A DNA stretch of 64,000 bases from a bacterium. Its GTDB lineage: Bacteria > Orphanbacterota > Orphanbacteria > Orphanbacterales > Orphanbacteraceae. Location of the stretch: positions 204,501-268,500 of the forward strand of contig JALGYY010000043.1 of assembly GCA_025782575.1 (NCBI GenBank). Reading direction: 5' to 3'. The notes below the pieces were generated by a model. It saw only the letters and a list, made by a program, of their open reading frames with translations, did no database searches and was not told the DNA's origin. Below are positions 1-57,894 of this stretch, piece after piece (within the stretch, counting starts at the first letter, position 1; each line of letters opens with the position of its first letter). The position numbers were made by a program, and so were the translations under genes.

Positions 1-476
1 CGGGGGCGCTTTTCCAACCGGAGAAACTGATAGATAAGAAGAAGGTTCAGGAATACGCCCACGGAGGTGGGGATCAGAAACGTGTCAAAGAAGAGAAGGG
101 GCTTGTAGAAGCCACCGATCAGCATGGCGATCAGGCCCACCGGCCGGCCGGCGATACGACTCCCGATCAGATAGAGCAACCAGATCGATCCGAGCCCCAG
201 AAGCATCTGAAAGATTACGACAGGCAAAACCGATCGACCGAATACTTTATAGAACGCACCTAAAAAGTATGGATAAAAAGGATTGGAAGCGAATACCGGC
301 AGGGGATAGCCGTCCCCCTCCGCGATCCGGGCGCCCAGCTCGTCATAAACCTGTGCGTCTACCATGGGATGGTGAAAGAGAGGCTGTTGCCAGGAGTTTA
401 TCAGATAGGCGGCTTTCCATCCGCCAAAGAACAGCAGAAGCACAGCGACAAGAACAGGTGGTCTCAGGACTTTCAC
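1..476 (-). CDS. Membrane glycosyltransferase-like protein (GT39/ArnT type), N-terminal part
   Basis: This is a partial gene that runs off the left edge; about 158 residues are visible. The proposed GTG start overlaps the TGA of the beta-helix gene upstream (GTGA), suggesting translational coupling. The protein opens with a hydrophobic segment at residues 6-20. A periplasmic stretch with a VYDELGARIAEGDGYP-like block and FASNPFYPYFL follows, then further membrane helices. That layout is typical of dolichyl-phosphate-mannose-type glycosyltransferases (PMT/GT39, ArnT), which move sugars from polyprenyl carriers at the outer face of the inner membrane. The substrate cannot be inferred. The family is inferred from the N-terminal pattern only, since most of the enzyme is outside the window. 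Confidence 0.6.
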   Translation of the reverse strand, partial: MKVLRPPVLVAVLLLFFGGWKAAYLINSWQQPLFHHPMVDAQVYDELGARIAEGDGYPLPVFASNPFYPYFLGAFYKVFGRSVLPVVIFQMLLGLGSIWLLYLIGSRIAGRPVGLIAMLIGGFYKPLLFFDTFLIPTSVGVFLNLLLIYQFLRLEKRP

Positions 477-1690
477 TGGCCACCTGTCTGAACGAGAGCG
501 GGTTCACCGGACGGAGGATCCTCGCCGCAACTTACGGAATAGCAACCGACCGGCGTCTCACCGGCGCAAGGGGATCCGGGACGGAGCCGCTGGTCGTTCT
601 GCTCGTCGCAGAGGAGCGGATCGGCCCATGTAGCCTGAACGTCATCGAGCGCACCCTCTGCCTCGCCGGCGCCGAACAGGATGTTCCTCCGCGTTTCGAT
701 CGCGCTCTCCCCATCCCGGTAGAACCAGGGACCGGAAGTGCGGACGATCAGGTTTCCTTCGATGCGCGTCTCCCCTTCCTCGTCGATCCGAATCCCCCCT
801 GTCAGGGCACTGTAGTTCCGGACCAGGGTGTTCCGGATGATCCGGGGAGAGCTCTTCCAGGAATAGATCGCTCCTCCTTTGTAGCCGCAATCGTTATATA
901 TCATCAGGTTCCGATCCAGTTCCACTTCAACGCCCTGGAGAAAGGAGACGGCGCCCCCTCTCATCATCGCCTTGTTTTCAACGAAAGTGTTTCCCCGGAT
1001 CACCCCTTTTGAGAATTTCAACATGGCGATTCCTCCACCGGAATCGAATACGACCAGGTTGTTCCGGAATATGTTCCCCGTGATTTCCGCTACGGCATTA
1101 TCGATCATGCCGATCCCGCCACCATGAAAGACTGCGGAATTGCCATCGAACAGATTGTTTCTGATTTCACCACTCGCACCGTGCATCAGACAGACGCCCC
1201 CACCATGGAAGCGGGCATAGTTATTGTAGAACCGATTATTGGTAATCGTAGAGCTCAGCTTCCCCATAACAAGCACGCCGCCACCGTTGCCGATATCGAA
1301 CCAGGCGTTTCGGAGTGTGAACCCGTCAATTGTGACATGATCCCCTTCCTGCCCCCGGCACTGGAAACAGGCACTCTCAAGCCCCTCACCATCAACGGTG
1401 GTCGTCCACTGATCGGTGTCTCTCACTGTGAACTCGTTGTTCCAGCCGCCAAGGAGCGTAAGCCCCTGCTGAATACGAACCGCTTCGTTATAGGTGCCAT
1501 GGGCGACGAGAATCGTGTCGCCGCCCGATGAGGCGTCGACAGCAGACTGAATTGTGGGGAACTGGACCGGAACTGTGTGGGTGGCTCCATGAGCAGGGAG
1601 GCAGTACAGCAGCACGCCAATAAGTGATAAGAGCGGCACCCCGATCCGGCATGAGAGAGGGGATCTCGACTGGAATTCTCGATGTGCCAT
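473..1690 (-). CDS. Secreted right-handed parallel beta-helix protein
   Basis: A 405-residue protein with a signal peptide (hydrophobic residues about 17-35, cleavage near AHG-AT). After TVPVQFPTIQSAVDASSGGDTI, the usual opening of DUF1565/pectate-lyase-like beta-helix proteins, there are repeated short units of the form I-x-x-N-x-F/L-x-x-N-x-A with GGG turns (about residues 140-330). These are the coils of a parallel beta-helix. Such proteins sit on the surface or outside the cell and may bind or cleave polysaccharides. I see no clear catalytic site, so enzymatic activity is not claimed. The gene overlaps the next gene by 4 nt. Confidence 0.8.
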   Translation of the reverse strand: MAHREFQSRSPLSCRIGVPLLSLIGVLLYCLPAHGATHTVPVQFPTIQSAVDASSGGDTILVAHGTYNEAVRIQQGLTLLGGWNNEFTVRDTDQWTTTVDGEGLESACFQCRGQEGDHVTIDGFTLRNAWFDIGNGGGVLVMGKLSSTITNNRFYNNYARFHGGGVCLMHGASGEIRNNLFDGNSAVFHGGGIGMIDNAVAEITGNIFRNNLVVFDSGGGIAMLKFSKGVIRGNTFVENKAMMRGGAVSFLQGVEVELDRNLMIYNDCGYKGGAIYSWKSSPRIIRNTLVRNYSALTGGIRIDEEGETRIEGNLIVRTSGPWFYRDGESAIETRRNILFGAGEAEGALDDVQATWADPLLCDEQNDQRLRPGSPCAGETPVGCYSVSCGEDPPSGEPALVQTGGQ

Positions 1691-1931: not shown

Positions 1932-2573
1932 CTACCGTGTCAGTGTGCGGGAAGGGCGCCAGAGATACTCTGTGGGCGCGGGCGAAATACACTGGCACTC
2001 GCTCTGCACGCTGTCCACATCGCAGAACGGTCCGCTCGTAAAGGCGGTAGTAAAGTACCCGGAAAAGACGCCGTCAAGAATGAGATCGAGCGGACCATCC
2101 GACGATGCACTGTAATAGACCGTCCCGATTTTTCCCGGAGCGTCCCAGGGCGCAAGAAAGGAGAAGTCAGTCGATTGGACGATCCAGCACTTCGCCGACG
2201 GGTTCGCTCTGCTGATCCAATCGGATTGATCGGGAGGATCACTAAGCAAAGGAGAATCGGACCACCCTTCCGGGCTGTTGTAGACAAAGCTGTCCACATG
2301 CACGGCGGAACTGTCCGCGACGCAGAAAGTACAGGCGATCGATGAGAGCGGATTGGGAACACCATCGAAGAAGAGATCGAACGAGGAAGCGCCCACTCCC
2401 CCGCCACCGGGGATCGCACGACGAAGGGACATGTCGAATGCCGGATCGCACCGGAGATCGCCGTTACGATCGATCCCTATGAAAGAGCCGCCCCACGCAG
2501 AACCGCCCGGGATGAGTAGAAACGCAAGAACCCCCGCAGTTACGCGGAGGCTCCTGATCGGTCTACTCATCAA
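1932..2573 (-). CDS. Secreted DRNGD-domain protein, copy A1 (function unknown)
   Basis: A 213-residue exported protein with a signal peptide (hydrophobic residues 9-28) followed by one domain that I do not recognise from named families. Landmarks in order are FIGIDRNGDLRCD, FDLFFDG, CTFCVADS, VYNSPEGW, CWIVQSTDFSF, a GTVYY strand and LDGVFSGYF. The D-R-N-G-D-x-x-C-D segment resembles a calcium-binding loop, and the cysteines may form disulfides. The C-terminus ends YLWRPSRTLTR, a variant of the SWxxVKxLFR tail of its neighbours. It begins 4 nt after the stop of copy A2, so the two are almost certainly co-transcribed. No function is assigned. Confidence 0.8.
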   Translation of the reverse strand: MMSRPIRSLRVTAGVLAFLLIPGGSAWGGSFIGIDRNGDLRCDPAFDMSLRRAIPGGGGVGASSFDLFFDGVPNPLSSIACTFCVADSSAVHVDSFVYNSPEGWSDSPLLSDPPDQSDWISRANPSAKCWIVQSTDFSFLAPWDAPGKIGTVYYSASSDGPLDLILDGVFSGYFTTAFTSGPFCDVDSVQSECQCISPAPTEYLWRPSRTLTR

Positions 2574-2577
2574 ACTA

Positions 2578-3210
2578 CTAACGGAAGAGAGTTTTCACAT
2601 CGGACCAGCTTGTCGCCTCGGTCGATGTCGTGGCTGCACAATTGGCGAACGACCCCGTCAACCCCCCGGAGGAGAACCAACCACTGGCCGCACCATCAAG
2701 AAGAAATGTGAGGAGGCCCTCTGAGGCTACTTCGTAAGTCACTGTCGCCTGCACACCCGGACCAGTCCAGGGAGATCCGAATGTGAAATCGACCGACTGA
2801 AGAAGCCAGCATATCAGATTCGGGTAGGTCGAGATCAGATCGGCAGAGATCTCCCCCTCCGAAAAGTTGACCAGCTTAATTGGAGTGTTGGTCCAGGCTG
2901 CCGGGGTGCTGTAGGAAATCGCGGTACCAAGATCCAGGGTGACGCGATCCGAATCATTGACGCAGAAGAAGCAGTTAACCGAAAACATGCTAAGATCGTC
3001 GCTACTCCAGAAGATGTCGACTGATCTCATGACGCCCACGTCGCCAGGACCATTAACTTCGGTCATTTCGGTATTGCCATCACAGACCAGGTCACCATTA
3101 CGATCCATGCCGAGAAATTCGTTGGCGGCCCATGGCGTTCCGGCAGCCAGAATTATCCCGGCGGCAATGGCCGCCCCCCTCGCGCACTTGCTCAAAACCC
3201 CTCGCATCAT
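2578..3210 (-). CDS. Secreted DRNGD-domain protein, copy A2 (function unknown)
   Basis: A 210-residue protein from the ATG at 3210, chosen because AAGGAGC lies just upstream; an in-frame start at 3255 would add 15 poorly placed residues. After a signal peptide it carries the domain seen in A1: FLGMDRNGDLVCD, VDIFW, CFFCVNDS, AWTNTP, CWLLQSVDFTF, VTYEVASEG and LLDGAASGWFSS. It ends SWSDVKTLFR, closely matching the end of the A3 protein. A promoter at 3279-3307 precedes it, and it leads into A1. Standalone copies plus copies inside the protein at 54577-57894 show that this is a mobile domain rather than a single-gene oddity. Confidence 0.82.
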   Translation of the reverse strand: MMRGVLSKCARGAAIAAGIILAAGTPWAANEFLGMDRNGDLVCDGNTEMTEVNGPGDVGVMRSVDIFWSSDDLSMFSVNCFFCVNDSDRVTLDLGTAISYSTPAAWTNTPIKLVNFSEGEISADLISTYPNLICWLLQSVDFTFGSPWTGPGVQATVTYEVASEGLLTFLLDGAASGWFSSGGLTGSFANCAATTSTEATSWSDVKTLFR

Positions 3211-3278
3211 CAGAGCTTGCTCCTTTCCAAAACAGATCGGGAATCCCGTTTGCATGACAAAGACGAATATACGCCGCT

Positions 3279-3307
3279 ACTATAGGCAGCAGCGCAAACT
3301 GTGTCAA
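3279..3307 (-). promoter_or_regulatory. Sigma70-type promoter for the A2-A1 operon
   Basis: On the minus strand TTGACA (3307-3302) is followed by a 17-nt spacer and TATAGT (3284-3279), near-perfect housekeeping elements. The start codon at 3210 lies about 60 nt beyond any start point. The arrangement matches the promoters of the neighbouring A3 and dockerin-like genes. Confidence 0.8.
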
Positions 3308-3334
3308 CGGGATTTTCGGCGGATTGAGGGGGAT

Positions 3335-3370
3335 AAAAAAAGAGAGGCGACCCACAAGGGGCCGCCTCTC
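3335..3370 (-). terminator. Rho-independent terminator after the A3 gene
   Basis: On the minus strand GAGAGGCGGCC and GGGTCGCCTCTC form a stable stem with a short loop, immediately followed by seven T residues. It lies 36 nt past the stop of the gene at 3406-3948 and separates that gene from the A2 promoter. Confidence 0.92.
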
Positions 3371-3405
3371 GGAGCGTTCAGAGTAACTGAACGGTAGAAA
3401 TTGAT

Positions 3406-3948
3406 CTACCGGAACAGACCCTTCACAGCACCCCAGCTCGACTCTTCCGTAGCACTTCCACCGATCTGGACGCTACCACCGACATTGCCGGTGTTGAAGA
3501 GGCCGGTTCCGCCATAGTAGGAGAACCAACCGGACTGGTTGCCATCGATCGTGAGATCGTCAAGCGAGTTGTCGACAGCCGCATGGTACGTGGCCGTTCC
3601 GTGCAGGAACGGAATCGCCAGCCCAACGAACGCGAAGTCCGTCGACTGGAGAAGCACGCAAGGCGGGTTGACCTGCGGGGCGGTGTTGGTCCACGCGACT
3701 GCGTAGGCATAGCCCTGGAATTCCAGGGAACCGTCCAGGTTGCAGAGAGTGACGTTGGCCGAGATCAGGTTCGAAGGTGCCGAACCGACCACCCAGACAT
3801 CTACCGTGATGTAGTCACTTACGATCGCCACAGCTACGTCCGGACCGTTACCAAGCACGTTATCGAGATCGAGCTCGATGGTCGGCTGGGCAAGGGCAAT
3901 CCCGGCAAATAGTGCGCCGACGAAAGCAACAGCGAGAGCCTTCTTCAT
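3406..3948 (-). CDS. Secreted DRNGD-family protein, divergent copy A3
   Basis: A 180-residue protein with a clean signal peptide (MKKALAVAFVGALFAGIALA). It aligns with the second half of the A1/A2 domain: ITVDVWV, a TLCNLDGS segment, AWTNTAP, CVLLQSTDFAF, GTATYHA and IDGNQSGWFSYYGG. It ends SWGAVKGLFR, like A2. The DRNGDxxCD loop and the paired CxFC cysteines are missing or degraded, so the proposed metal-binding part has been lost or replaced by DLDNVLGNGPD. The start has AAGGAGC 8 nt upstream. It has its own promoter (4118-4147) and a strong terminator, so it is an independent transcription unit. Function unknown. Confidence 0.8.
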   Translation of the reverse strand: MKKALAVAFVGALFAGIALAQPTIELDLDNVLGNGPDVAVAIVSDYITVDVWVVGSAPSNLISANVTLCNLDGSLEFQGYAYAVAWTNTAPQVNPPCVLLQSTDFAFVGLAIPFLHGTATYHAAVDNSLDDLTIDGNQSGWFSYYGGTGLFNTGNVGGSVQIGGSATEESSWGAVKGLFR

Positions 3949-4583: not shown

Positions 4584-5303
4584 CTAAGGGAGGATCGGTG
4601 CTGAGCAGTCAGCGCCCGCAAAAGTGTTCCCAACACTGAATCCGGCACAGGCCGAACCCGCGCTCAGGTCGGGCAGGTACCTGAACGTATCGAAGAAGTT
4701 AACTGCCGGTGAAGCACAGTTCATGTTTCCGGACCAACCACTACCCGAACTCAACTGGGGCAGATACTTGAATGTGTCGAAGAAGTTGATGTTCCCCGAG
4801 CCGTTGAAGTCGGTCGACTTGACGCAGAGCGTATCGACCTGTGCGCACAATTCCACTTCCGGATCTGCGCATTCAGCCGTAACGGACCAGGTCAGCTCAA
4901 GCTGACCGGCGCCGCCGCCAACAACGTAGAAGCGGGCCGTACCGTTGGCATCGGTCAGAGCAGTAGCGGAACCTGTGCCACAGAGCCAGCCGTTGGTGCC
5001 GCCGCCGTTTTCATTCTGAGGATCGAACGCGCCGGAATAATCGAAACGGACCGAGCAAGTCTCGATGGCCGCACCGAGGCAGTCGCGAACTGTGACTGCG
5101 ATGCAAAGGGAGTCAAAGTTAACCTGACCATAGGAAAAGAGCACGTCGGTGGTAGGATTAGTAGCCCCGGCATGACAGTTTGAGTGCTGGGCCACCGTGA
5201 GTTCACAGCTCGAGTAAGCCGCGCACGGTAATCCTGCGAACGCGGAACCGGCAATCGCAACACTCGCGAGAGCCAGGAGACCGAGTACGAAGCCTTTCTT
5301 CAT
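4584..5303 (-). CDS. Secreted protein with a C-terminal dockerin-like calcium module
   Basis: A 239-residue protein. The ATG at 5303 is chosen because AGGAGGT sits 8 nt upstream, rather than the in-frame start at 5342. The signal peptide spans residues 1-23 (MKKGFVLGLLALASVAIAGS). The middle part is a cysteine-rich Ig-like region containing DANGTARFYV, as in Big_1/invasin-like domains. The C-terminus has DFNGSGNINFFDTFKYL, which fits the dockerin type I calcium loop D-x-N-x-S-G-x-I-N-x-x-D. A second, weaker half follows (VNFFDTFRYLPDL) in which the acidic calcium ligands are mostly lost. Dockerins dock to cohesins in cellulosomes, but in this group isolated dockerin-like repeats are common on secreted proteins, so a cellulosome is not implied. 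Confidence 0.82.
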   Translation of the reverse strand: MKKGFVLGLLALASVAIAGSAFAGLPCAAYSSCELTVAQHSNCHAGATNPTTDVLFSYGQVNFDSLCIAVTVRDCLGAAIETCSVRFDYSGAFDPQNENGGGTNGWLCGTGSATALTDANGTARFYVVGGGAGQLELTWSVTAECADPEVELCAQVDTLCVKSTDFNGSGNINFFDTFKYLPQLSSGSGWSGNMNCASPAVNFFDTFRYLPDLSAGSACAGFSVGNTFAGADCSAPILP

Positions 5304-5745
5304 TGGTGTCTTTACCTCCTGCAGAAATACAAATACGGACAAAAATCCACGAATGGAAACCGAACTCGAATCACCTCACCAGACCACGGTGCGTGGAAGG
5401 GGCGAGGCGTCTATCGAAAAAGCCGTCTTATAGGATTTTCGATATGACAAACCGCTACCCTGCACCTCCTTTCGCACATAATCTGGGTGTTCTTCGGCTG
5501 TGGGAGAACTCAATCGCGAGCTTAGTAGCAAGGACCACTATACCAAGGATTCTGGCTCGCTGTCAAGACGAAACCTTATCTCCCGCTGAGGTCTGCCCCC
5601 CTCGGCCGGTCCTTTCACTTCGGTCTGAACCTTACCAGATGGCGGAGTGGGAAGTCAACCGCTTTGTCTCGGTAACTGCAGCATAATTCAAGGCTTCCGG
5701 GAATTATCCTGTTCCCGGATACTTGCCGGAAAAGGTCACAACATC
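5304..5745. other. Intergenic leader region between the dockerin-like gene and tRNA-Val
   Basis: No protein-coding gene is supported. The stretch contains the promoter at 5537-5566 and therefore a long leader of about 230 nt for the dockerin-like gene. I could not fold this leader into a named riboswitch class by eye. Confidence 0.6.
5537..5566 (-). promoter_or_regulatory. Sigma70-type promoter for the dockerin-like gene
   Basis: TTGACA (5566-5561), an 18-nt spacer and TATAGT (5542-5537) on the minus strand form a near-consensus promoter. Confidence 0.8.
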
Positions 5746-28286: not shown

Positions 28287-28375
28287 GCAACAAATTTCCT
28301 CTTATGATTCACTTGTCGTAGGCTGCATCCGTCCGCCTCTGGCGAGCCAATAGGAACACCGGGAGGTAGGGACGG

Positions 28376-28921
28376 GTGTATCGTTCCGTGATCCTTCTCA
28401 CTCTTGCATCTTTGGGGCTTCTATGGGCTCCTTCAATCGACGCGGCCGGATTCGAGCTGAAGTCCTCTGTAATCGGGGCAGCCGGTTCACCCGGATCGAG
28501 TGCGAGCTTCAATTCGAACGGCACTCTTGGTCAATCCTCCTCCATTGGGCCGGGAGGGAGCACTACATTTGTTCTGACAGGCGGTTTCTGGAGTAAGCTT
28601 CAAACGGCAACCGGCATCTTCGAAGCGGCTATCCCTCCTATCTTCCGGAACGCTTTGCTTCCCAATGCTCCGAACCCGTTCAACCCCGTTACATCGATCA
28701 ACTTTGAAGTAAGCAAACAATCTCCGGTCATCATTACCATTTTCAACATAAAGGGCCAGGCAGTACGAAACCTGGTCCGGGAAGTAAGAGAGCCGGGCCG
28801 GTACGAGATCCTGTGGGACGGAAAGAACAACCAAGGCAGACAGCTCGCTTCGGGCGTTTTCTTCTGCCAGTTTCAGGTCGGCGAGTTCAGCGACGTCAGA
28901 AAAATGCTTCTATTGAAATAG
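28376..28921 (+). CDS. Short secreted protein with C-terminal FlgD-like sorting domain
   Basis: 181 residues from a GTG preceded by GGGAGG. The signal peptide ends near SIDA-AGF. A glycine/serine-rich stretch follows (residues 30-75, with SxGxLGQSSSIGPG). A FlgD_ig/T9SS-type C-terminal domain spans about 95-181: LPNAPNPFNPVTSINFEV, IFNIKGQAVRNL, GRYEILWDGKNNQGRQLASGVFFCQ, ending RKMLLLK. The same tail occurs on three large secreted proteins in this window and is presumably an export/anchoring module. It is followed after 13 nt by the fibre-like protein, so the two are likely an operon. Confidence 0.82.
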   Translation: MYRSVILLTLASLGLLWAPSIDAAGFELKSSVIGAAGSPGSSASFNSNGTLGQSSSIGPGGSTTFVLTGGFWSKLQTATGIFEAAIPPIFRNALLPNAPNPFNPVTSINFEVSKQSPVIITIFNIKGQAVRNLVREVREPGRYEILWDGKNNQGRQLASGVFFCQFQVGEFSDVRKMLLLK

Positions 28922-42928: not shown

Positions 42929-44602
42929 TCAGCGCACCAGCATGACCTTCTTCGTCATTCTCGATCCGACGTCGACAGTCAGGAAATACGTCCCACTCGG
43001 CGCATCACGTCCGCTGTTGTCGCGGCCGTCCCAGGCAATCTCGATCTCACCTGCGGGCCCGTTTGACCGGATCGAACGGACGAGCCGCCCGGCGACGTCG
43101 TGGATCGACAGTTCGTATCGCCCCGATTGCCCGAGGGTGAACCGTACTGTCGTCATCGGATTGAACGGGTTCGGTGAGATTGTAAACGCTCTCGCCGACG
43201 GAAGATCATTATAGGCGATGCTCGTGCTGACGGACGTATTCATCTGAAGATCGTATCGCTGGATGTCATCGCCAGTACCGGTCTTTCGGAAAACTCGAAT
43301 AATAAAAGCTCCCGCATACGGGAGCTGTACTGAACTCATCAATTCGGTCTCTCCGAGTCCCGCCGATGTTCCCGACGCGATCAGCGTCGTCCCGAGACTG
43401 TCATAGAGCTCGACGTCCGGATCAGAAATCATATCGGTGGAGATCGAAACAGGGGGCGGACCGTTTTGAATCCCGAGAAGATAGGTCGATCCCACCGGAA
43501 TGACTGCGATGTCTACGAACGGGTCGTTCATTACGACAATGTAATAGTCGTCCTCCGCCCCATGATCGATCGAGAGATCAGTAACAAGAAGACTGTCGAC
43601 CAGAGTGTCGAGGAATGCAGCGGTCGATGGAATATCATTGTTTTCGTAGAGGTCGCCGTAGAGAAGCTGAGCACCCCGGATATCGTCGTCGAATGGACCA
43701 AGCCCTCCAAGACCCACAAAGGCTTCCATCAGCTTGGTTCCATCTACCGGCGTTACATGGCCAAGCCCCATCCCGTGGCCGTGCTCGTGCATCGTCACGT
43801 TTTTGAGGAATGTGAAATCGTTCGTGGGATTGGCGAATGCGGCGGCATCATCGGTGTCCAACACCATGTCGCCGCCGTTGAACGGAAAGTTATTATACGC
43901 GAGAATTCCCGAGTTGCCGTCGATCGACCGCCCACCGATTCGAATATCAGGCCGAACGCCGACGATTCCGGGGGAGTCCGGGAAAGATGCGCTGTCGTCG
44001 TAGGTCACTTCCAGATAGGTCGTGCCGAGCAGCCCGTCCCAGCGGGCCATCGCTTTCCTCATCTTTCTCTTCCACTGGTTCGGGTTTCCGAATGTGGATC
44101 CGAATACTAAATTGGCAATGTTCGGCCCACCCGGTTCCATGATCTCCGCGTCGCTTGCGATGAAAACACTATCCGGCATAAACCCCCAAAGGAGAGTAAC
44201 GGGATCACCTTCAATGCCGGTGGGGCCATCTGTGGCGGTTGTAGTCCAGCGTCCCCATATGCGGTAGTTCGTTTTTCCGGTGACGGAGTACTTTCGACCC
44301 AGTCTCTCCATAAGTTCGGCGAGGCGCTCTGGCTCGGTATTCGGGTCGAGGATGATGTGAGTCGTCTCGAGTTCGAGACAGGCGGGGTGAATATCGGCCC
44401 CCTCTTCGTAATACTTTCGTGACAGAACTGATCTGGTCGTTTCCAGGACGATCCGATCGAATGGATCGGGAGACTGAAGCAGCTCCGCGATTCGTTCCGG
44501 TCGAGATTCCGGATCGCCTTGGTCAGGTGTCAACAGTCTGGCGGACGTGAGGCCGCCTGCGAGGATCAGAAGACAGAGTATCGCTGCCGGGCGCTTACTC
44601 AT
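42929..44602 (-). CDS. Secreted matrixin-type metalloprotease with FlgD-like sorting domain
   Basis: 557 residues. A signal peptide lies at 1-20. A pro-like region reaches about 110. The catalytic domain carries the metzincin zinc site HEHGHGMGLGH (His272, Glu273, His276, His282) followed by a Met-turn in GTKLMEAF (Met292), as in matrixins. Residues 320-450 look like a pre-peptidase C-terminal (PPC-type) beta domain: YENNDIPSTAAFLD, DDYYIVV and FIIRVFR. The C-terminal 80 residues form the PNPFNPMTTVRF sorting domain ending KKVMLVR. It is likely an exported zinc endoprotease. Confidence 0.9.
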   Translation of the reverse strand: MSKRPAAILCLLILAGGLTSARLLTPDQGDPESRPERIAELLQSPDPFDRIVLETTRSVLSRKYYEEGADIHPACLELETTHIILDPNTEPERLAELMERLGRKYSVTGKTNYRIWGRWTTTATDGPTGIEGDPVTLLWGFMPDSVFIASDAEIMEPGGPNIANLVFGSTFGNPNQWKRKMRKAMARWDGLLGTTYLEVTYDDSASFPDSPGIVGVRPDIRIGGRSIDGNSGILAYNNFPFNGGDMVLDTDDAAAFANPTNDFTFLKNVTMHEHGHGMGLGHVTPVDGTKLMEAFVGLGGLGPFDDDIRGAQLLYGDLYENNDIPSTAAFLDTLVDSLLVTDLSIDHGAEDDYYIVVMNDPFVDIAVIPVGSTYLLGIQNGPPPVSISTDMISDPDVELYDSLGTTLIASGTSAGLGETELMSSVQLPYAGAFIIRVFRKTGTGDDIQRYDLQMNTSVSTSIAYNDLPSARAFTISPNPFNPMTTVRFTLGQSGRYELSIHDVAGRLVRSIRSNGPAGEIEIAWDGRDNSGRDAPSGTYFLTVDVGSRMTKKVMLVR

Positions 44603-44798
44603 CCGGGGCTCCTTGTTTTGACGAACATTAGAATGCGGGATATCGAGGGCCTTGCCTGGATTATATCACAAGCGATACAGATCGAGGGGATCGAGGGGGA
44701 TCACTTCCAGAGCTGTTCCGGTATTGATTGATTGCGGTAGCTCGAGGGAGACCTGGTTGAGACTCCCTCGAGCCCGATGCTGGAGCCGGCCGATCTGC

Positions 44799-46265: not shown

Positions 46266-48662
46266 TTACCGGACGAGTATCATCTTGCGACTTTCGACAC
46301 CGCTATCGGCCTCCATCCGATAGAGGTAGACACCGGAGCCGACCGGGTCGCCGGCGGCTGTTCGGCCGTCCCACGTCACTTCGTGCACACCGGCATCACG
46401 GCGCTCATCCAAAAGAGTTCGCACGAGACGCCCGCCGAGCGTGTAGACGGAGACATTCACCCGCTCGGAACGGTCCAGGTCGAACCGAATCCTGGTCGTC
46501 GGATTAAACGGGTTCGGTGTGGCCGGATGGAGCCGCGTATCGGGCAGCTGCGGTGCCGTCGACGGGTCCACGCTGGTCGGCACGACAAGGGCTTCGCCAG
46601 GCATCATCACGATGGCGTCCCACTCGATGGCGTCTGGGCCGAATACATCAATCGTCAGGAAGAGCGGCTCGGGGAAGATCGTTCCCAGATTGACGATCGA
46701 CTGAGACGGAGCAGCCGCTTTTTGCGTCCCGCCGAGAAAATCGTCCGGTCCGATCGTCGTTGAGAACTGAATCGAACCGCCGCCCATGGACGGTTGCCAG
46801 ATACTGACAAACACTTCAGTGAACCCCGCCGGTATCCCCCCGAAAGGATCGACCAGGTCGGCTGCACCGAGAATGAGCACCGTGCTGTCGGCGAATCCCT
46901 GTAGCGGATCGCCTGAGTTGTAGAGCCACGGCCGATCGGGATCGATTTCCATGGGCAGCTCCACTTGGAATTGCTGGAACCAGTTCGGGCCGGTCGTTGC
47001 CGGCACCTCGTCCGTTAACGTGCCGGGAAACCATCCATAATTATAGAATCCGAATGTACCTTGTCCGAGTGTGTCATTGAATTCTGCCGCTGAAGCGTCC
47101 AACCAGCCGATCGAGTGGTTGTTGTAGCGGGATCCGAATGGAGTCGGCGTCACCGGCTCTGACGTATCCCGAAGCCACGTAGCTAGCATGCGTACGCCCG
47201 GTTTGTTGGAGTGCATCACTACTTTGTACTTGCCGGTGGCGTTCGCTGTGCCGTTCCTTCGAAAATAGATCGACTTGCCCAGATTCCAGTTATACGTGCT
47301 CGAGTTGACCCAGCTGGTTCCGGTCCCGCTCGAAACTTCACACTGCAACGTAAAATTGCCGCACGTATCGGAGCTGGCCCCACCGGGGAAGCGGAGACAG
47401 ACAGTGGAACACGCTTCACCGATCTGGAAGCAGAACGGTTCACCTTTGGCGTCATCGAAAGTGTGGACATAGCCGCCAGTTGTGTTGTTGTTCTTGCAGT
47501 CATTCAGCCACTTTCGCCAGTTCGTCGAGTCCGGTCCGTTCTTCAGCGCTTCGGTAATTGCCGTGACCGCTGAATCGGCCCACTCAAATGCTTCGATCCC
47601 GGTGAGACCCTGTTGGATGCAATCCCATAAGGCCAACGGGAATATTGACCCGTCAACCGCATCGCCGTCGCTCTGGAGGAAGTAGCAGGAACTATTGGCG
47701 CCGTCACTCGACATGGAATGAAAGCCGTTTACCTTCTTTTCCGCGAGCTCGTCGAGGAGTGAGCCGGAATGACACGCTTCAACTATTACGCAATACTCAT
47801 CGGCCGCCTGATCCTTCAGCTTGCAGGCGAACTCTTTTGCCGTGATGAACTTCCCGCCGGGCAGCCATAGTGTGTCGGGCGTGCCGTGGCCGGTCCAGAA
47901 GACATAAAGCTTGTCACATCCCTGCGGCAGGGCATCGATCGCGCTGAGAATTTCAGCTTTCGTCTTGCCCACCTGAACATCCGGTGTGACTCCGAGCGAT
48001 TCGAAGCTCTCAATGGCACAACGAATATCGGCACCGAATTCTTTGTCCGCCGCCGTATCGTACGGCGTGATGATGATGCCCCAGACATCAGCGGCTTCGG
48101 TTTTCGGCACGATGTTTTGGCGCTTGATGTCGTCCGGGATCTCAATTCGTGGGAACCGGAAGCGGCCGTCCTCCGTTCCCGGAATAGCCCCACCCGAACC
48201 GAACGATGTTAGGAAGGCATCGGCCGTCAGATCACGGTCCACGTTCGTCGCGTAGAGCTCCACCCCTCCGACCGACGGCCACCATTGGCCGTCAGCCGTC
48301 CAGGCGATGGTGCCGCTCGCATCGTCGACGAGCACGAACTTTGTGGGATGCCCGAACTGGGCGCGAGGGTTCAGATCGAGCCAGATGAACCATGACGATG
48401 ATACGGTCGTGGTGAGTGTATCGATTGTGTTTTGTGCGATAAAAGTTCCGCCGGGGATAGTGACTTGCATGGCGAAACCGTTAAGCGCGTAGTTCACGCT
48501 CAGCGTGTCGATAATATCGGTTGTGACAAGATCGATAGCGTCTTGCCGGGTGATGGCGCCGGCTGGTGATACCGCGCCGAGAATCGGCAGGAACAGTGTC
48601 AGGAAGATTATGGCACTGATCCGTTTGTCACTGCTTGAGCGGGGCGTATTGGTTCCGATCAT
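46266..48662 (-). CDS. Secreted caspase/legumain-like cysteine protease with FlgD-like sorting domain
   Basis: 798 residues from the ATG at 48662 (GAGGAGGT upstream; a start at 48698 is possible). A signal peptide is at 13-36. Residues 190-330 show the CD-clan protease core: a strand GIIITPYDTAA, YVFWTGHGTPDTLWLPGG with catalytic His259, and CVIVEACHSGSLLD with catalytic Cys297. The pattern fits C13/C14/gingipain-like peptidases. A beta-rich region follows, with a PPC-like or Ig-like stretch near 430-530 and further sandwich domains. The C-terminus has ATPNPFNPTTRIRF and ends RKMILVR, the sorting domain. It is probably exported and processed. Confidence 0.88.
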   Translation of the reverse strand: MIGTNTPRSSSDKRISAIIFLTLFLPILGAVSPAGAITRQDAIDLVTTDIIDTLSVNYALNGFAMQVTIPGGTFIAQNTIDTLTTTVSSSWFIWLDLNPRAQFGHPTKFVLVDDASGTIAWTADGQWWPSVGGVELYATNVDRDLTADAFLTSFGSGGAIPGTEDGRFRFPRIEIPDDIKRQNIVPKTEAADVWGIIITPYDTAADKEFGADIRCAIESFESLGVTPDVQVGKTKAEILSAIDALPQGCDKLYVFWTGHGTPDTLWLPGGKFITAKEFACKLKDQAADEYCVIVEACHSGSLLDELAEKKVNGFHSMSSDGANSSCYFLQSDGDAVDGSIFPLALWDCIQQGLTGIEAFEWADSAVTAITEALKNGPDSTNWRKWLNDCKNNNTTGGYVHTFDDAKGEPFCFQIGEACSTVCLRFPGGASSDTCGNFTLQCEVSSGTGTSWVNSSTYNWNLGKSIYFRRNGTANATGKYKVVMHSNKPGVRMLATWLRDTSEPVTPTPFGSRYNNHSIGWLDASAAEFNDTLGQGTFGFYNYGWFPGTLTDEVPATTGPNWFQQFQVELPMEIDPDRPWLYNSGDPLQGFADSTVLILGAADLVDPFGGIPAGFTEVFVSIWQPSMGGGSIQFSTTIGPDDFLGGTQKAAAPSQSIVNLGTIFPEPLFLTIDVFGPDAIEWDAIVMMPGEALVVPTSVDPSTAPQLPDTRLHPATPNPFNPTTRIRFDLDRSERVNVSVYTLGGRLVRTLLDERRDAGVHEVTWDGRTAAGDPVGSGVYLYRMEADSGVESRKMILVR

Positions 48663-48758
48663 GTGACCTCCTCTTTTCCGGGAGAGTGTCGGCCGCATTC
48701 CGGGGATAGCGGTGAGGAGTGCGGCTCTCCCCCCGCCGATTGATCCATGGATATAGTA

Positions 48759-48774
48759 CGGACCGATCGGTCCG
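48759..48774. promoter_or_regulatory. Perfect 16-bp palindrome in a divergent promoter region
   Basis: CGGACCGATCGGTCCG is a perfect dyad between the divergent caspase-like protease (minus) and kinase (plus) genes. It lies about 100 nt from each start codon. Its position suits an operator for a dimeric regulator acting on both genes. Confidence 0.6.
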
Positions 48775-48874
48775 ATATTGCGGACTGAAATCGAATGGCG
48801 AAATAGATATCGGGATTTGCATACTGTCGAGGTAATATACCATCCTATAAAGAGCTTAACCGATAGGTGCTGTT

Positions 48875-54576: not shown

Positions 54577-57500
54577 ATGGTCTCCGGTCACAGGAGTCAT
54601 CCCCCGGCATTCTTCATTTGTTTTTTCCTCGCGTTCCTATGCCCGAAAGTATCCGCCGATTTCATAGGTCTCGACAGAAACGGGGACTTGCTCTGTGACT
54701 CCCCTTCGGACATGGGGGTCGCCACCGGAGTCGCGGGCGTCCGCGATACATTCGATCTCTTTATGGATGCCTCGGTGGGAATATTTTCTTGGGGCTGCAC
54801 TTTCTGCGTCAACGACTCGAACTCTATCATTATTGACACATTTCTCTACAACGCCCCACAGAACTGGACACAGATCGATCTGCACAGCGTCACAGTGCCG
54901 CTCGAATTGCGCGCCTTCTTCCCGAGAGCGAAGTGCCTGATCGCTCAGGCAGTTGACTTCGACCTTACGAACCCGATTCAATTGCCGGCACGACTCGGGT
55001 CATTCGCCTACGAGATTGCAGAGGCCACATGCGTCGGTTTTGTGATCGACGGTTCACTCAGCGGTTATTTTTCGACCGGTCTTCAATCAGTTGTTTTTGA
55101 TAACCCGGCCGATGTCTGCTCGCAGCAACCGTGCGGACTCTCCCTGACCGTCAATGGAGTCTCTCCTGAATGTCCGGTTCCACCCGGTCATGTCGGCGAG
55201 ACTTATCCCGGCGAAGTTGTATTCACGGCAGCGGGCGGGTCCCCCCCTTACACATGGTCCCAAACCGGTATGCCCACCGGGCTCGACATCGACCCACCGA
55301 CCGGCGAGGTGGTCGGCACGCCGACCACCATGGGCGATTTCTCGTTTGTCGCTACCGTGACCGACAGTCTGGGCGATCAGGCATCGCGTGCCTGTTCGCT
55401 CGTGATAGTCGAAGATGTCATGGTCGATCCCGACAATCCTGCTTGCCCCCTTCCCCATGGGATGAGGACGGAACCGTACTCTGAGAGCGTGCAATTCAAG
55501 GCACTCGGAGGAGCGCCGCCATACATATGGTCGAGCGTCGGCCTCCCGACAGGGATGGCAATCATTTCGAATACGGGATTTGTCGTCGGCATACCGGCAA
55601 ATACCGGGAAATACGTATTTACGGTAACCGTGGCGGACTCGGAACTGAAGCAGTTCGCATCCACCGATTCACGAACCTGCTCGATGCGCGTCTTTCGAGA
55701 ACTCAAAGTTGGTACGCTCCAGCCCGAGTGCCCGATTCCACCAGCGACGCCTGGCGAGCCGTACCCCGCAGGGACGACGTTCCAGGCTTCGGGAGGGCTT
55801 CCCCCCTATGGCTGGACCGCGTCCGGGTTACCCACGGGGATTTTCATATCGCCGTCCGGCGAAATCAGCGGTCAGACAAATGAGACAGGCCCGTTCTTAT
55901 TTACTGTAACCGTCACCGACTCTTTGGGGCAATCCGACAACCGCGAATGTTCCATCGATGCTGGATTCCCCGTATTGATCGACACGTTAGATCCGATCTG
56001 TCCACTGCCTTTCGTCCTCCGCGGCGCGCCGATTCCGGCGGCGTATTCTTTCCATTTCTTTGAGGGCATTCCCCCGATCGGCTGGTCGGCTTCCGGACTG
56101 CCTCCAGGCGTCACGATCGATCCAGGGTCCGGGCAGCTGGTCGGCAGCGCGACTTCCGTCGAAAACTATCCTTTCACCGTTTCCGTTACAGACAAGTACG
56201 TCACCAGCTCTCGTGATTGTGCACTGCGTGTGGTGGATCCACTCCAGATCGACGAAAGCGTCCCCGCCTGCCCCCTTCCCACCTCAGATCCGAACGAGCC
56301 ATACCCGGCCGGGTCAGTCTTTTCCGCGAACGGAGGGCTGAATCCTTACATCTGGTCACAAGCCGGTCTACCCGGAGGAATGCTTATTGACTCTCTTAGC
56401 GGGGAGATCGGCGGCACGCCCCTAGAGGCGGGCACATTCTTGTTCGAAGTCTCGGCGGTCGACCAGTTGGGACTGACAGACACTGTAAGCTGCGAAGTCA
56501 CCATCGGCCCCAGCTTTCTGGGGTTCGACCGGAACGGCGACATGCTCTGTGATCCCTCCGTCGATCTGGGAACAATCCTTGCTCCGATCGGCTCGGTCGA
56601 TACTCTTGATCTGTTCATCGATGGATTCGCTTCGACCACCAGCTGGGCATGTACATTCTGCCTGCTCGATTCCAATTCCGTTCTTCTCGACACGTTCATC
56701 TACAACACTCCACCCGCATGGACCGATATTCCTTTGCAGTCCGCCGCCGTTCCGGCTGAGCTCCAGAGTCAGTACCCCTTGATGAACTGCTTCATCGTAC
56801 AATCGACCGACTTCAGTTTCACAGAGCCGGTTGCCATTCCATCAACTCTCGGTTCGCTCATCTATGAAGTCGCCTCGGAACCATGCGTCGGTTTCCTGCT
56901 TCACGGTCCTGGGTCCGGATATCTGTCGACCGAGCTCGAGCCCGTAATTTTCACCGACCCTCACTCTACGTGCGGAACGTATTCCGATTGCGCTGTCACG
57001 GTCGCAATCGACGAACAGGACCCGGTCTGCCCGCTTCCACAGGCGAAACGGAATCAACCGTACGTCGCGCCAGGCCCGTTCATCGCCGCCGAGGGATTCC
57101 CGCCGTTCACCTGGTCCCAGGTCGGACTTCCGAGCGGTCTGGATATTGATCCTCAAACGGGCCTTGTCTCAGGAACGTCGAGCGCCGGGCGCGGCACCTA
57201 TCCGTTTACGGTTACGATGCAGGATGAGTTTGACAGAGTTGCAACACGGGAATGCCGGGTCAGACTTTGCGCCGGCGCGCTTTGCACGTTTTTCCCGATG
57301 CAGGTCGAGATCGGCGGAATCACTCTGGTCGAGCAGGAAGCTGGGGTCAGAGTAAACTGGACGGTAGTTGACGTATCACAATTCCTGCGAGTCCATCTGA
57401 TCGGCGGTCCCGCTCCGTCAGGTGACTACGAAGTTCTAGCTACCGAAGATGTGTCCCTCTTGAGTGGGGGAGCAGGCTTCGTGTATTTCGATTCGATCGC

Positions 57501-57894
57501 GCCTCTCGATCGAGAATACTACCTGCAAGGCGATTTGATAACCGGCGGGGTTGAAACGTATGGGCCGGTACTCAGAGTTTCGGCAACCGGCCTGCCGGGA
57601 TCCGAAGTGCCGGCACCCGGCAAGCTCACAATCAGGAGCGAGCCGAATCCGTTCAATCCAACGACGACGTTGTCATTCGCTCTCTCCGGAGCTGGCCATG
57701 TCCGGCTCGACATCTATGACGCCCGCGGATCGCATGTGAAGCGGTTGGTGGACGAGAGCCTCTTGTCCGGGGCGCATCAGATCGTATGGGGAGGGAAACG
57801 TTCGGGCGGAAGCGCCGCGCCGTCCGGAATCTACTTTGCCAGGCTACGCGTCGGAGACAAAAGGGTCGTGACGAAGCTGGTGCTTATCAGATAG
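54577..57894 (+). CDS. Multidomain secreted protein: two DRNGD domains, six Ig-like repeats, FlgD-like sorting domain
   Basis: 1105 residues. A signal peptide (1-27) is followed by DRNGD domain B1 (about 28-180: FIGLDRNGDLLCD, CTFCVNDS, LDGxLSGYFST equivalent IDGSLSGYFST). Five repeats of about 90 residues follow. Each starts with C-P-x-P and contains GGxPPYxWSxxGLPxGxxI and an FxxTVTDSLG-type strand, as in the He_PIG/cadherin-like putative Ig domain. Domain B2 (about 645-800: LGFDRNGDMLCD, CTFCLLDS, QSTDFSF) comes next, followed by a sixth repeat. The C-terminal part is an Ig-like stretch plus PNPFNPTTTLSF ending TKLVLIR. The paired cysteines suggest disulfides. It probably acts as a surface adhesin or scaffold. 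No catalytic site is visible. Confidence 0.85.
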   Translation: MVSGHRSHPPAFFICFFLAFLCPKVSADFIGLDRNGDLLCDSPSDMGVATGVAGVRDTFDLFMDASVGIFSWGCTFCVNDSNSIIIDTFLYNAPQNWTQIDLHSVTVPLELRAFFPRAKCLIAQAVDFDLTNPIQLPARLGSFAYEIAEATCVGFVIDGSLSGYFSTGLQSVVFDNPADVCSQQPCGLSLTVNGVSPECPVPPGHVGETYPGEVVFTAAGGSPPYTWSQTGMPTGLDIDPPTGEVVGTPTTMGDFSFVATVTDSLGDQASRACSLVIVEDVMVDPDNPACPLPHGMRTEPYSESVQFKALGGAPPYIWSSVGLPTGMAIISNTGFVVGIPANTGKYVFTVTVADSELKQFASTDSRTCSMRVFRELKVGTLQPECPIPPATPGEPYPAGTTFQASGGLPPYGWTASGLPTGIFISPSGEISGQTNETGPFLFTVTVTDSLGQSDNRECSIDAGFPVLIDTLDPICPLPFVLRGAPIPAAYSFHFFEGIPPIGWSASGLPPGVTIDPGSGQLVGSATSVENYPFTVSVTDKYVTSSRDCALRVVDPLQIDESVPACPLPTSDPNEPYPAGSVFSANGGLNPYIWSQAGLPGGMLIDSLSGEIGGTPLEAGTFLFEVSAVDQLGLTDTVSCEVTIGPSFLGFDRNGDMLCDPSVDLGTILAPIGSVDTLDLFIDGFASTTSWACTFCLLDSNSVLLDTFIYNTPPAWTDIPLQSAAVPAELQSQYPLMNCFIVQSTDFSFTEPVAIPSTLGSLIYEVASEPCVGFLLHGPGSGYLSTELEPVIFTDPHSTCGTYSDCAVTVAIDEQDPVCPLPQAKRNQPYVAPGPFIAAEGFPPFTWSQVGLPSGLDIDPQTGLVSGTSSAGRGTYPFTVTMQDEFDRVATRECRVRLCAGALCTFFPMQVEIGGITLVEQEAGVRVNWTVVDVSQFLRVHLIGGPAPSGDYEVLATEDVSLLSGGAGFVYFDSIAPLDREYYLQGDLITGGVETYGPVLRVSATGLPGSEVPAPGKLTIRSEPNPFNPTTTLSFALSGAGHVRLDIYDARGSHVKRLVDESLLSGAHQIVWGGKRSGGSAAPSGIYFARLRVGDKRVVTKLVLIR

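Follow-up and report, generated by a model that had tools for sequence, protein, structure and literature searches.

Some C-terminal sorting signals, PEP-CTERM and LPXTG among them, are short motifs on otherwise unrelated proteins that carry a signal peptide. In the type IX secretion system (T9SS), the type A C-terminal domain (CTD) requires its last 13 residues, notably the lysines of motif E, and the last 22 residues of HBP35 are enough for the export of GFP (PMC10202324). One near-invariant lysine near the C-terminus makes the only conserved contact with PorV of the translocon (PMC10994853), and the signals of Prevotella intermedia, with 40-55 residues, are the sole short ones known to the authors of that study (PMC11969387). 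Here we describe a 64,000-nucleotide stretch of bacterial DNA (the window) that encodes five copies of a secreted domain, which is probably related to cohesins, and in which two of the proteins with this domain end in a nine-residue tag.

The open reading frames lie where the original prediction had placed them, with A1 to A3 in 1932-3948 (-) and both B1 and B2 in 54577-57894 (+) (Table 1). A1, A2, B1 and B2 are homologous over their whole length and share 33-48% pairwise identity (BLASTP, E <= 1e-28 at a small database size), with 34 invariant columns in their alignment. A3 is a divergent relative of the other copies (BLASTP, E 1e-3 to 1e-9), which lacks the G-x-D-R-N-G-D sequence, the first core cysteine and the C-x-F-C pair. 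From the pattern's second half it keeps LLQSTDFAF, TATYHAA and DGNQSGWF, and it has cysteines in TLC and PPC. The proposal that all five copies share one pattern thus stands for the four homologous copies and is wrong for the DRNGD loop, because A3, with two core cysteines, has no G-x-D-R-N-G-D. A1 to A3 had also been described as three tandem copies; they are really three separate genes for secreted proteins, not tandem domains. The stop of A2 (2578) and the start of A1 (~2573) place these two genes only a few bases apart, and A3, which lies upstream with a leader of its own, is followed by a terminator-like hairpin between A3 and A2. In the 1105-aa protein, B1 starts right after the signal peptide; B2 lies in the interior, amid the He_PIG Ig-like repeats (PF05345), which form six stretches across the whole protein.

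Table 1. Genes, domains and C-terminal elements of the domain family in the window.
Feature	Position	Strand	Basis
A1 gene, 213-aa secreted protein	1932-2573	-	ORF translation
A1 DRNGD-type domain	2007..2489	-	translation, alignment, BLASTP
A1 C-terminus LWRPSRTLTR, degenerate tag counterpart	1935..1964	-	translation and comparison of relatives
A2 gene, 225-aa secreted protein	2578-3255	-	ORF translation
A2 DRNGD-type domain	2617..3123	-	translation, BLASTP, alignment
A2 C-terminal tag WSDVKTLFR, stop directly after	2581..2607	-	translation, motif search
A3 gene, 180-aa secreted protein	3406-3948	-	ORF translation
A3 A3-type domain, without DRNGD, two core Cys	3460..3885	-	translation, BLASTP
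A3 C-terminal tag WGAVKGLFR, stop directly after	3409..3435	-	translation, motif search
B1/B2 protein, 1105-residue ORF	54577-57894	+	
B1 DRNGD-type domain, mature N-terminus of the 1105-aa protein	54655..55128	+	translation, BLASTP, profile search
He_PIG Ig-like repeats between B1 and B2	55132..56511	+	Pfam PF05345, E 1e-50
B2, second DRNGD-type domain of the 1105-aa protein	56512..56985	+	translation, BLASTP, profile search
T9SS type A / FlgD-like C-terminal tail of the 1105-aa protein	57643..57891	+	HMM matches

At thresholds as loose as E <= 10, no Pfam-A or NCBIfam model matches the domain in any window copy; the Pertactin row listed with A3 (E 0.41) is far under the cut-off of that model. 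Thirty-three more family members (14 A3-type and 19 DRNGD-type), searched singly against Pfam, gave no credible match. PDB sequences contain no match to the domain, and we do not regard the few rows below the threshold, one of them an antibody light chain (E 0.27), as credible. The claim that the domain belongs to no named family is borne out in that it is unnamed in Pfam-A, NCBIfam and the PDB sequences. FG-GAP/VCBS-type Asp-rich repeats, a first guess from the Asp-rich loop, were ruled out by the lack of a Pfam match.

The profile of the four DRNGD copies matches 18 places in the window's own genome. The phylum, a Candidatus Eisenbacteria lineage, is represented by seven genomes, and all seven have matches; 53 other genomes have none. 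The A3-type profile is positive in the same seven genomes and in 0 of 379 others. Among public genome contigs the sole match carries the label Candidatus Eisenbacteria OFTM309, and no relatives were found in viral contigs. On this evidence the family is lineage-specific, with matches confined to the seven phylum genomes and OFTM309; it is real and is unnamed in the libraries searched. To judge from their profiles (hhalign 99.4%, E 5e-21), the DRNGD-type and the A3-type are two subfamilies that are certainly related to each other.

A hydrophobic stretch like that of a signal peptide begins every member whose N-terminus is readable, in agreement with the earlier view that the domain is secreted. 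At the other end, the large and the small members differ. All 14 large members with a complete C-terminus end in an Ig-like FlgD/T9SS type A tail, which in the 1105-aa protein exceeds the cut-offs of TIGR04183 (23.6 bits vs 23) and FlgD_ig (31.2 vs 27) and stays below that of PF18962 (16.8 vs 27). In the large DRNGD proteins, the domain is located at or near the mature N-terminus, which is the far tip of a C-terminally held stalk. Nearly all small single-domain members with a readable end finish with W-[GS]-x-[VI]-K-x-[LI]-F-R directly before the stop, as in A3, whose last 15 residues are ATEESSWGAVKGLFR. The exceptions are A1 and a G001 relative that ends VWKGNRSIIR, both with degenerate ends, and members that are broken by contig ends or disrupted. 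Three other ORFs of the window carry an FlgD/T9SS type A tail (28370-28918 (+), 42932-44665 (-) and 46269-48872 (-)). The 405-aa secreted protein that adjoins A1 (473-1690 (-)) has the look of a right-handed beta-helix and bears neither tag nor tail, unlike tagged beta-helix proteins elsewhere.

A pattern of the nine tag codons plus a stop has 195 matches in the seven genomes, 14 to 48 per genome. The last codon of the pattern also allows TGG, and TGG is what stands there in one match or more. The reversed pattern, used as a control, has 0 matches. The tagged ORFs with a true stop number 106, and 93 of them encode at least 100 residues. A signal-peptide-like hydrophobic start is present in 92 of these 93 proteins, as called by a hydropathy rule rather than by SignalP. 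When the signal peptide and the tag are removed, the protein bodies fall into 35 clusters (BLASTP, E <= 1e-3), and the tagged proteins include right-handed beta-helices, NHL propellers, a SnoaL/DUF4440-like protein and a pullulanase X25-like domain. Within the tag, W, K and R never vary and L occurs in 97 of 98, which is partly imposed by the search pattern; a preference for T/S-A-T-E-E-S-S upstream of the tag lies outside this pattern. The codons for K, L, F and R vary synonymously, so selection acts on the peptide; a DNA element was ruled out by this variation and by the use of all three stops.

Forty-one nine-codon matches are found in the window's own genome, and 36 fit the stop pattern, one of which reads TGG and is an internal copy in the L149 SnoaL-like protein. 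Among the other five, three are 1-2 residues short of the stop, a fourth sits inside a longer protein and the last looks like a chance match. A duplicated protein in another genome (L234, G003:C44:22300-23200) has an internal tag, WGAVKGLFRERDTY..., at its junction and the variant WGSVKQLWR at its end. Ten or more tags occur in 19 of 386 genomes. Besides the seven described here, these are twelve genomes of seven other families, in which the tag end is mostly L-Y-R; one or two matches occur in 26 further genomes among the 386. No NCBIfam or Pfam model covers the tag. Subscription papers and preprints lie outside the coverage of the literature searched, in which we found neither the tag motif as written nor a paper that links Eisenbacteria with type IX secretion. 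The tag looks like the most novel element of this system, undescribed in that literature.

The T9SS translocon protein SprA is encoded in 19 of the 19 tag-rich genomes vs 101 of 372 overall, and PorU exceeds its cut-off in 18 of 19 vs 64 of 372. The hypergeometric P values by genome (5e-12 for SprA and 3e-14 for PorU; ~2e-5 for SprA by family) overstate the case because phylogeny is ignored. The window's own genome contains SprA_N (E 6e-15) and PorU (NF033707, E 1.5e-167), both above the cut-off. In the type A tails of the family, position -6 is [KR], position -3 is L (13 of 14) and position -1 is R; the tag likewise has L and R at the latter two positions, with K at -5. T9SS tail models match neither A2, A3 nor 30 tagged C-termini, and an HMM of the lineage tails has 0 matches among all tagged proteins, in which motifs A-D are absent. 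Because the tagged proteins lack these motifs, the link to T9SS consists of genome co-occurrence, which is confounded by phylogeny, and of the likeness of the last residues. A nine-residue version of motif E is nevertheless reasonable and testable, given the published CTD ends and the shared end residues, and we propose that the tag may act as a minimal T9SS-like export signal.

The tag could also be a signal unrelated to T9SS that serves retention, membrane docking or processing by another receptor, with T9SS co-occurring through a shared group of phyla. We regard this as possible but somewhat doubtful. The lack of a folded Ig-like CTD and of motifs A-D fits such a signal, a helix would present W1, V4 and L7/F8 on the same side and could be capped by the preceding S/T, and most SprA-bearing genomes are without the tag. 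However, SprA accompanies the tag in all tag-rich genomes and PorU in nearly all, a single domain family alternates between the tag and the type A tail, both signals finish with L at -3 and R at -1, and short C-terminal pieces of the CTD are known to suffice (PMC10202324). Our reading of W-[GS]-x-[VI]-K-x-L-[FY]-R is a minimal export or sorting signal. The motif, which each genome has on dozens of unrelated secreted proteins, would replace the 70-100-residue type A domain in at least eight T9SS-bearing families and would here export private, cohesin-derived, paired surface proteins, a proposal whose chances we consider evenly balanced.

To place the domain itself, the A3-type (46 domains) was compared with 18 cohesin domains of the same genomes, which match PF00963, most of them above its cut-off. 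The two alignments match over 102 collinear columns (hhalign 91.5%, E 8.5e-7), whereas He_PIG repeats and FlgD tails, two beta-sandwich families of the same genomes used as decoys, reach at most 1.2%. An HMM of the lineage cohesins picks ten A3-type domains with E values of 1.4e-8 to 6e-4 in a 69-sequence set. The match depends on alignment depth, since it is strong only with the 46 A3-type domains and 18 cohesins; an earlier hhalign comparison with five cohesin candidates and smaller alignments was not significant (E 0.039, probability 0.7%). The DRNGD-type compared directly with the cohesins gives a weak match that is not significant (5.4%) and reaches them solely via the A3-type (99.4%). 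The PF00963 model, at E <= 10, matches none of P0001-P0004, 14 A3-type and 19 DRNGD-type members, nor four further A3-type domains that are the most cohesin-like, and the family is therefore not filed under PF00963. Domains that do match PF00963 occur in other secreted proteins of the window's genome (G000:C2 and C11, L052-L055), several of which have FlgD-type tails.

Two AlphaFold models from seven sequences are poor (pLDDT 47 and 46) with a strand order compatible with the nine-stranded jelly roll of cohesins, and a Foldseek search of the PDB with these models returned nothing significant, so that no fold is assigned. With the weak A1 model, VIA-align gives rows for mixed beta-sandwiches including cohesins, all with Z<4; type I cohesins make up 10 of 50 rows, all collinear, with Z 2.3-2.8, and the A3 rows have Z<3. 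As evidence on the fold, the A1 cohesin rows are a hint from a model of low confidence. The original prediction would have taken an independent beta-rich fold as a sign of novelty; the profile-profile comparisons speak against independence from known families by tying the DRNGD-type to cohesins through the A3-type. It is unlikely, in our view, that the domain is a new beta fold of its own, with the cohesin link arising from convergent alternating hydrophobic patterns of secreted beta-sandwiches: the silence of the Pfam cohesin model, the insignificant direct comparison of the DRNGD-type and AlphaFold models too weak to decide would all fit, but the A3-type match to cohesins is strong and collinear with both decoy families null, and the A3-type and the DRNGD-type are certainly related. 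The best reading of the sequence comparisons is that the two types form a divergent cohesin-like family, cohesin-related rather than isolated.

In 19 DRNGD-type members, none of the four core cysteines varies. Across 23 DRNGD-type domains, C14 is present in all 23, and C53, C56 and C101 are present in 21. In the 46 A3-type domains, C56 and C101 occur together in 26, are both absent in 20 and never occur singly. The joint retention or loss in 46 of 46 domains supports a C56-C101 disulfide, and we infer a second one between C14 and C53; the disulfide stabilization suggested earlier thus has co-variation behind one of its bonds. Nearly all DRNGD-type members have the loop D-x-[ND]-[GA]-D-x-x-C-x(n)-[DE]-[ML], in which the last acid sits 12-14 residues past the first Asp. 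This is the spacing of the EF-hand/dockerin calcium loop, which makes calcium binding by the DRNGD-type loop plausible. That the domain is an enzyme with this loop as its metal active site is highly improbable. The conserved acidic loop and the invariant Trp and Asp residues elsewhere would fit, but the loop is missing from the A3-type, which is certainly related and is the partner in the conserved gene pair; neither a conserved His nor any other catalytic set is present, and the (near-)invariant residues are only structural Cys, Gly, Trp and Phe plus one Asp.

An A3-type gene is followed by a DRNGD-type gene on the same strand in seven of seven genomes (A3 and A2 in the window, G001:C49, G002:C6, G003:C49, G004:C15, G005:C784 and G006:C41), with the DRNGD genes of two of the seven pairs running off contig ends. 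As in the window, an A2-like gene, here broken at a contig end, precedes an A1-like gene in G001:C34. The pair is kept across genera, which suggests that its A3-type and DRNGD-type products function together. The original prediction mentions neither this pair nor the C-terminal tag. Elsewhere, a tandem array of five tagged genes of ~190 residues each (L148, G000:C21:222900-226500) includes four that match as A3-type, and an internal TAG stop interrupts one of the four. Just upstream of A3 in the window, the gene at 4584-5342 (-) encodes a 252-aa secreted protein in which a weak Big_1-like part is followed by two EF-hand/dockerin-like segments, DFNGSGNINFFDTFKYLPQL ... AVNFFDTFRYLPDL. This dockerin-like protein is a possible partner of the adjoining cohesin-like proteins.

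The explanation that we hold for the whole, with somewhat better than even confidence, is a lineage-specific, secreted, disulfide-stabilized relative of cohesins with two subfamilies, which is exported by a tail or a T9SS-like tag and binds a partner. The Sec signal peptide would take the proteins into the periplasm, where they would fold with at least one disulfide (C56-C101), and the N-terminal aspartate/asparagine loop of the DRNGD type probably binds calcium. The type A C-terminal tail would then export the large proteins, in which an Ig-repeat stalk bears the domain at its N-terminal end, and in the stand-alone proteins the tag W-G-x-[VI]-K-x-L-F-R would be a minimal type IX-like signal. 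The domain most likely binds a partner, as cohesins do, and the side-by-side A3-type and DRNGD-type products may form or dock into one surface assembly. The family, its confinement to this lineage, the link to cohesins in sequence, the gene pair, the co-varying cysteines and the tag with its distribution are observed; calcium binding, the fold, the export route of the tagged proteins and partner binding are what we infer.

For an uncultured lineage, the domain family offers a first point of entry to the surface proteins, and the cohesin-like superfamily would gain a cysteine-rich, probably calcium-binding branch. The tag ranks above the domain in importance. If it is a T9SS signal, then its closing K-x-L-[FY]-R, which resembles motif E, would be the minimum that the machine reads, nine residues would reveal many secreted proteins in several little-studied phyla, and the idea is directly testable by reporter fusion.

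Compared with the cohesins of PF00963, the DRNGD/A3-type domain is likewise a secreted domain of ~140 residues with collinear predicted strands, its A3-type matches the lineage's own cohesins in profile-profile comparison, and cohesins too occur outside cellulosomes, including in the window's genome. Unlike them, it is below the reach of the Pfam model, and the DRNGD type adds the N-terminal Asp/Asn loop and two disulfide-forming cysteine pairs, the second presumed. The T9SS type A CTD (PF18962, TIGR04183) is carried by the window's 1105-aa protein and its large relatives. The tag shares with it L at -3, R at -1 and a basic residue at -5/-6, and differs in having nine residues (~15 with the TEESS approach) vs 70-100 and in lacking the Ig-like fold and motifs A-D. 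The Prevotella intermedia signals, the shortest that we found described, have 40-55 residues (PMC11969387). As a short C-terminal motif on unrelated signal-peptide proteins, the tag is like PEP-CTERM and LPXTG; in contrast to these, neither a transmembrane helix nor a basic cluster follows it, and the chain ends inside the motif.
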